Shown one piece after another: positions 1,318 through 2,529 of a stretch of DNA of 64,000 bases. Position 1 is the stretch's first letter, and the number at the start of each line of letters is the position of its first letter. This stretch comes from a bacterium (GTDB lineage Bacteria > UBA10199 > 2-02-FULL-44-16 > JAAZCA01). The stretch is from assembly GCA_021810905.1 (NCBI GenBank), contig JAJZQH010000008.1, positions 1 through 64,000 on the forward strand. Reading direction: 5' to 3'. The position numbers were made by a program, and so were the translations under genes. A model generated the notes under the pieces. The model was given only the letters and a program-made list of their open reading frames with translations, was not told the origin of the DNA and searched no databases.

Positions 1318-2529
1318 ATGCTCTCATTCGAATTAAAAAAGACGGGAAGCAACACGCGCGCCCGTGTTGGAAGGGTCAAAACCGCCCACGGAGAAGTTCG
1401 CACTCCGGCATTCATGCCGGTGGGCACGCAGGGCACCGTCAAGGCGATGACGCCGGAAGAGCTCGTATCCATCGGCGCGCAGATAATTCTCTCCAACACT
1501 TACCATCTCTATCTCCGGCCGGGGCACGAACTCGTCCGGGAACTCGGAGGGCTGCATAAGTTCATGCACTGGGAGCGGCCGATCCTCACCGACAGCGGCG
1601 GCTATCAGATATTTTCGCTCGCCGACCTCAGGCGCAAATTCACCGAAGAAGGCGTTGAATTCCAGAGCCACCTCGATGGCGGCGCCAGGCACAGCCTCAC
1701 TCCCGAACTCGCAATAGAGATCCAGGAAGCGCTCGGTTCCGACATCATGATGGTGCTGGACGAATGCACCCCCTACCCAGCCGACGAAAAAGAGGCCCGT
1801 GCGTCCATGGAACTCTCGCTGCGATGGGCGGGCCGCTGCCTTGCCGCGCGCCGCTCCGACAACGCGCTCTTCGGTATAGTGCAAGGAGGAATGCACCCGC
1901 ACTTGAGGCGGGAATATATCGAGAGACTGCTCGGTGGTACGTTAGTACGTTCGTACGTTAGTACGTTCGTTAAACCTGTGAGAGACCAGATTGAGCGAGC
2001 GTACCAACGTACCAACGTACCAACGTACGACTTTGACGGGTTCGCCATAGGGGGACTCTCGGTGGGTGAACCGATTCCACTCATGTACGAGATGGTTGAG
2101 GTATGCACCGAACTGCTGCCCGCTGATAAGCCGCGCTATCTCATGGGCGTGGGCACGCCCGAGGACCTCGTGGAGTGCATCGACCGCGGCGTGGATATGT
2201 TCGACTGCGTGATACCCACGCGCCACGCACGCAACGGGGAGCTGATAACGAGCTGCGGCGACCTCAACATGGAGAATGCACGCTTCGCCAAGGACCCAAA
2301 GCCCGCTGATCCGCACTGCAGCTGCTACACCTGTCGCAATTACAGCCGCGCCTACATCCACCATCTCTTCAAGGCAAAGGAGATTCTGGCCGCAAGGCTC
2401 GCCACACTTCACAATTTACAATTCTACCTCGATCTGGTAGATCGGGCCGCCCATGCGATAGAGGAAGATAGATACCCGGAATTTAAAGAGAATTTCTTGG
2501 CAATCAGAAAGGAGAATTTATGCTTATGA
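1318..2529 (+). CDS. tgt: tRNA-guanine transglycosylase with an in-frame repeat-derived insertion
   Basis: Exchanges guanine-34 for a 7-deazaguanine (preQ1) in tRNAs with GUN anticodons, in the queuosine pathway. Family landmarks are all present: [11 protein letters not shown], the active-site block TDSGGYQIF, the nucleophile segment [14 protein letters not shown], and the zinc site HCSCYTC followed by YIHHL. At 403 residues it is about 25-30 longer than usual. The excess is residues 207-237, encoded by an 8-base-unit inverted repeat (1936-2028), between REYIERLL and the conserved [13 protein letters not shown]. Reading frame is kept throughout. It is the first gene of tgt-yajC-secD-secF and its last codons overlap yajC. 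queC and queE elsewhere in the window serve the same pathway. Whether the insertion is tolerated is unknown. Confidence 0.96.
1936..2028. repeat. 8-base-unit inverted-repeat element inside tgt
   Basis: The left arm is four GTACGTTA / GTACGTTC units, the loop begins AAACCTG, and the right arm is three GTACCAAC units plus GTAC. The segment is 93 bases, exactly 31 codons, with no stop in the tgt frame. It matches the intergenic elements at 25083, 36256, 37066 and 42078. Confidence 0.88.

Follow-up and report, generated by a model that had tools for sequence, protein, structure and literature searches.

In-frame insertion of a dispersed palindromic repeat in a Tgt loop that unrelated repeat families recurrently occupy

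How did a palindromic repeat come to lie within the reading frame of tgt, the gene for tRNA-guanine transglycosylase, and does it become part of the protein? The gene lies near the beginning of the 64,000-nucleotide stretch of bacterial DNA that was analysed as a whole (hereafter the window; Table 1). Pfam revealed a full TGT domain in the 403-residue product, and a genome-wide search returned one full tgt match only in a genome that is 99.5% complete. In the alignment with relatives, D92, D148, Q189, G245-G246-L247, D296, C334, C336, C339, and H365 were invariant; they include the catalytic Asp and Gln, the GGL motif, and the zinc CxCxxC...H expected of the enzyme. When the window was searched for a QueA-like motif, none was found. 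Among viral contigs, no Tgt was returned by a single-protein search, while an alignment query returned six, which were used solely in the alignment for the structure model.

Codons 207-237 of tgt coincide exactly with positions 1936-2028 (GGT ACG TTA GTA ... CCA ACG TAC) and contain no stop; the preliminary description, which had reported a 31-codon in-frame insertion of an 8-base-unit element here, was correct to the base. The element is composed of a left GTACGTTN array and its reverse complement on the right, separated by a short core, and the fold of its RNA is a single long hairpin (-46.6 kcal/mol, z = -8.75, 0/200 shuffles as good). Homology to solved Tgt chains is lost at about residue 203 and returns at 237-238; the solved enzymes have few residues there, and therefore about 30 residues are extra in this Tgt. 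The 15-base double unit GTACGTTNGTACGTT was counted 27 times across the window (0 expected). Given that the tgt core and the end of the left arm match the left half of a sibling-subfamily core (GTTAAACCTGTGAG.G..CAGA, L061:3748) at 19/22 positions, with the right half missing, the tgt copy represents a dispersed family in shortened form. Directly upstream of tgt, at 1223-1310, lies another palindromic tandem repeat, with ACAGAAT-type heptamers facing TTCTGAAT, which represents a second repeat family in the gap.

Table 1. Features of the window, followed by the repeats found in the Tgt loops of other genomes of the class
Feature	Position	Strand	Detail or evidence
tgt, queuine tRNA-ribosyltransferase (tRNA-guanine transglycosylase), 403 aa	1318..2529	+	Pfam PF01702 E=3.7e-159; genome search
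In-frame palindromic octamer element, Tgt residues 207-237	1936..2028	+	93 bp, 8-bp units
Left arm, (GTACGTTN) units, N = A,C,A,C	1937..1971	+	hairpin fold, pattern matches
Core/loop	1972..1993	+	core comparison with sibling subfamily
Right arm, (ACCAACGT) units, complementary to left arm save eighth base	1994..2028	+	hairpin fold, pattern matches
Sibling octamer element, intergenic-type copy	25085..25220	.	
Sibling octamer element	36255..36395	.	
Sibling octamer element	37068..37178	.	
Two sibling elements, adjacent or nested	42077..42254	.	
G002 Tgt insert			7-bp GGGACCA/AGTCACC arms; 49 own-genome matches
G004 Tgt insert			AGACCTT; 24 own-genome matches
G040 Tgt insert			GGGACCA; 45 own-genome matches
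G033 Tgt insert			ATTGCGAGC, REP-like; 41 own-genome matches
G023 Tgt insert			CATCCCCG, REP-like; 13 own-genome matches

Using the 161 bases around the element as a query, we obtained 92 local matches genome-wide, with both strands of the palindrome counted, and about 40 family copies, mostly intergenic, were read in stretches taken around the places of the element in the genome. The sibling copies span 65-181 bp and form hairpins with z of -7 to -9; the outer ends of most copies share CAAGTG|GTACGTTR, which is present at both ends as terminal inverted repeats, and the cores divide into subfamilies. A collection-wide pattern scan for GTRCGTTN arrays found them scattered over many phyla among the matches listed. 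Other palindromes of short tandem units occur in the window (50171-50262, 54346-54467, and 54911-55014; CAGCTATCAGC-type, GCAACGCAA-type, and CTCCCTTTGTAAGAGGGAG-type), so the genome holds several unrelated repeat families. The start codons of aspartate kinase (L061:661-1977) and of an IF-2B-family gene, methylthioribose-1-phosphate isomerase-like (L084:4006-5190), coincide with or follow octamer copies, which could extend the proteins at the N-terminus or influence their translation.

In-frame copies of the element are also present in coaBC and valS of this genome. The one in coaBC lies within the CoaB domain (residues 119-146), where homology to 1u7u is lost at 117 and regained at 148; the one in valS spans residues 440-467 (compared with 1gax). 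One relative (G033) has a related array in a hydrogenase large subunit and in metH. Among the strand-and-frame readings of non-coding copies, 13% were stop-free and 3.3% were both stop-free and a multiple of three in length. Moreover, C, which avoids TAG, made up 25% of the variable eighth bases in coding copies (5/20) versus 4.7% elsewhere (13/274; p = 0.004). Because of this low stop-free rate and the excess of C, coding copies look, as far as sequence can indicate, to be under selection for openness.

The AlphaFold2 model of Tgt, which was built from a seven-sequence alignment (mean pLDDT 79.5), comprises a helix at residues 194-205, a low-confidence insert, and the next strand at 241-245, and Foldseek recovered solved Tgt structures with it (e.g., 1q2r, TM 0.85). 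(beta/alpha)8 barrels have their active sites where the strands reach their carboxy ends, and the helix-to-strand loop of Tgt should therefore be on the opposite face of the barrel; the insert is accordingly predicted to face away from the active site. The preliminary description had put the insertion just before a segment lining the active site: that segment is indeed next in sequence, but the insert is predicted at the other end of the strand. The doubt raised there as to whether Tgt still works is weakened by this modelled far-face position and by the presence of all catalytic and zinc residues, and on the same grounds we judged disruption of the active site by the insert unlikely.

We further compared this loop across the class (46 genomes), in which 41 tgt loops were readable; all compared genomes are assemblies, with misjoins at repeats possible. 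Loop length, measured from the conserved LR to the GFAIGG strand, varied from 12 to 61 residues, with minimal loops of 12-14 residues in several orders, and some loops were not repeat-like. In the three further genomes compared from the family of this bacterium, the Tgt loops differ and lack this element, so these relatives do not share the insertion as a conserved loop; together with the 92 matches and the roughly 40 copies, this bears out the earlier view that a dispersed element arrived discretely. For tandem repetition or hairpin energy, 13 of the 41 loops fell in the top 2.5% of windows of their own gene, where about two were expected, and one or two of these repeat-like loops (e.g., that of G022) may be due to chance. 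The Tgt inserts of six genomes (this one, G000, and G002, G004, G040, G033, and G023) were then searched against their own genomes, and in 6/6 the insert was a member of that genome's own dispersed repeat family, amounting to about five unrelated families; even G000 and G002, of the same bacterial family, have different repeats in the loop. The loop has been occupied independently by different repeat families, a recurrence that the preliminary description had missed.

As a control at the same loci, arrays of 7- or 8-bp units were present in 8/44 tgt ORFs of relatives versus 1/64 neighbouring ORFs (Fisher p = 0.003), at nearly equal coding length (45.1 kb and 45.7 kb, respectively). Arrays also lie at two more Tgt sites, near residue 103 (G033) and near 178-182 (G040 and G035), the latter being a helix-to-strand loop. 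In one assembly (G036) there are two tgt genes (L016 and L247), one with an octamer-type insert and the other with a minimal loop; this pair may reflect contamination (6%) or a filled and an empty version. A comparable pattern was found in ValS, where the insert (valS at L078:1440-4226, minus strand) sits between both cysteines of the first zinc-knuckle CxxC. Repeat-type inserts occur at this place in about 7 of the 29 readable genomes of the class (G000, G002, G004, G010, G021, G025, and weakly G043), and in G000, G002, and G004 they come from the same family as the genome's own Tgt insert. The first CxxC of ValS thus appears to be a second recurrent landing loop.

Taken as a whole, these data are, very probably, best explained by the recurrent landing of dispersed palindromic repeats in a tolerant Tgt loop, with the present copy being translated into an appendage of 31 residues. 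In this scenario, a dispersed non-autonomous palindrome (octamer arms, CAAGTG|GTACGTT ends) would have placed a copy into the loop that joins helix 194-205 to strand 241-245. Retention of this copy would be due to its lack of stops, its length divisible by three, and its solvent-side location, where additional residues are tolerated. The copy would then be transcribed and translated as part of a working Tgt, the hairpin being neither spliced nor bypassed; we infer both expression and retained activity. The Tgt loop and the first CxxC of ValS would be repeated landing sites for the resident repeat families of each genome, and the recurrence probably stems from selection acting on how well loops tolerate inserts, not from site-specific targeting. 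Against this explanation, a strong hairpin might slow ribosomes.

The preliminary description had asked whether the hairpin is cut from the mRNA or jumped by the ribosome, which would leave a protein without the 31 residues. We regard this as exceedingly unlikely: the hairpin is very stable and byps elements elsewhere are bypassed, but the element-bearing loops of independent lineages are all in frame and stop-free, an outcome with a chance of about 3% per copy as judged from the non-coding copies. A self-splicing intron was also considered and rejected, as an Rfam scan of the window returned two tRNAs only and no intron or ribozyme family, and the element is 93 bp long. With the reading frame preserved in all loops, these sequences make translation as an additional surface loop far more probable than removal or bypass of the RNA. 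It is highly improbable, too, that local slippage enlarged an ordinary variable loop, which would then be repetitive in looks only. The wide range of loop lengths in the class and the loops that are not repeat-like would fit such growth, which is possible for other short loops; for the six tested genomes, however, it is contradicted, given that the inserts match dispersed copies in their own genomes, the inverted arms are paired, and the tgt copy contains the family core.

Whether one ancient insertion diverged into the different repeats seen today, or many arrived, is a question already raised for RPE-4/6/7, where hotspot and divergence of one insertion were both left open and the authors leaned to a common origin (PMC3767692). 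In the class studied here, unit lengths differ, sequences are unrelated, and each insert matches its own genome's family, which favours repeated independent arrival; minimal loops persist in several orders and G000 differs from G002, and we consider a single ancient insertion very doubtful. These class data thus speak for independent arrivals in the question left by the RPE work. The paired octamer arrays might instead be sites of a DNA-binding regulator, with the tgt copy a regulatory site that is coding by accident. In Geobacter metallireducens, paired octa- and heptanucleotide arrays on opposite strands are called putative global-regulator sites, a function that was only proposed (PMC2700814); the varied array lengths, cores, and mid-gene positions in our genome suit a mobile repeat better, and regulator sites seem unlikely. 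Beyond the landing of tolerated repeats that we prefer, certain loops of essential-type enzymes (Tgt 206-237 and the ValS zinc knuckle) may be genuine landing pads, reached independently by unrelated repeat families, at which a coding hairpin is possibly beneficial, for instance by making ribosomes pause ahead of the next barrel strand or by tuning translation fidelity via tRNA modification and charging; this reading is speculative and rather improbable.

Several known systems resemble the element. Rickettsia RPE and Wolbachia WPE are dispersed palindromes of about 100-150 bp that lie in frame in conserved protein genes at solvent-exposed places, and different RPE groups have been reported at identical or neighbouring gene positions (PMC3767692, PMC2229807, PMC10969869); Rickettsia Gmk with an RPE insert is translated and active (PMC2229807). 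The present repeats differ from these in lineage and sequence, in arms of 7- or 8-bp tandem units, in mostly intergenic copies, and in one loop being common to clearly unrelated families, REP-like ones included. Tandem arrays of 8-bp (GTTGCTYN) or 7-bp (GGGACCG; MTYCTGA) units in tens of copies, several of them paired on opposite strands at variable distance, and the GGGACCG kind also within genes, are known from Geobacter metallireducens, where they were described as putative regulatory sites or RNAs; the units differ from GTACGTTN, and the portion of that paper drawn on here does not describe a shared landing loop (PMC2700814). REP/RAYT systems likewise feature small many-copy palindromes, and the tgt inserts of G033 and G023 resemble REPs. 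Four Y1-type transposases are encoded in this genome, but octamer arrays are absent from the flanks of all four Y1_Tnp loci, unlike REPs flanking rayt. MITEs (ERIC, RUP, and Correia/NEMIS) are also short, non-autonomous repeats with inverted ends that are sometimes intragenic; here, no parent transposon for the octamer family was found in this genome, and no target-site duplication was evident in the flanks of the copies of this genome alone.

Given the RPE and Geobacter metallireducens precedents, the repeat kind itself is not new, whereas a landing loop shared by unrelated families appears new in the searched literature. The comparison shows some protein loops as probable recurrent landing places for selfish DNA, suggesting that natural genomes may be used as an insertion-tolerance map of proteins and that in-frame repeat capture is not confined to intracellular Rickettsiales. 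We describe the element as RPE-like by architecture and do not claim membership, as the lineage is not Rickettsia. At 93 bp, this copy is slightly below the RPE length range. The in-frame position in conserved genes that marks RPE-like elements was found in tgt, coaB, and valS of this genome and in the hydrogenase and metH genes of G033. The methionine synthase-like gene of G033 (L088:1144-3915, minus strand) carries one octamer array and apparently three REP-like stretches, all in frame.
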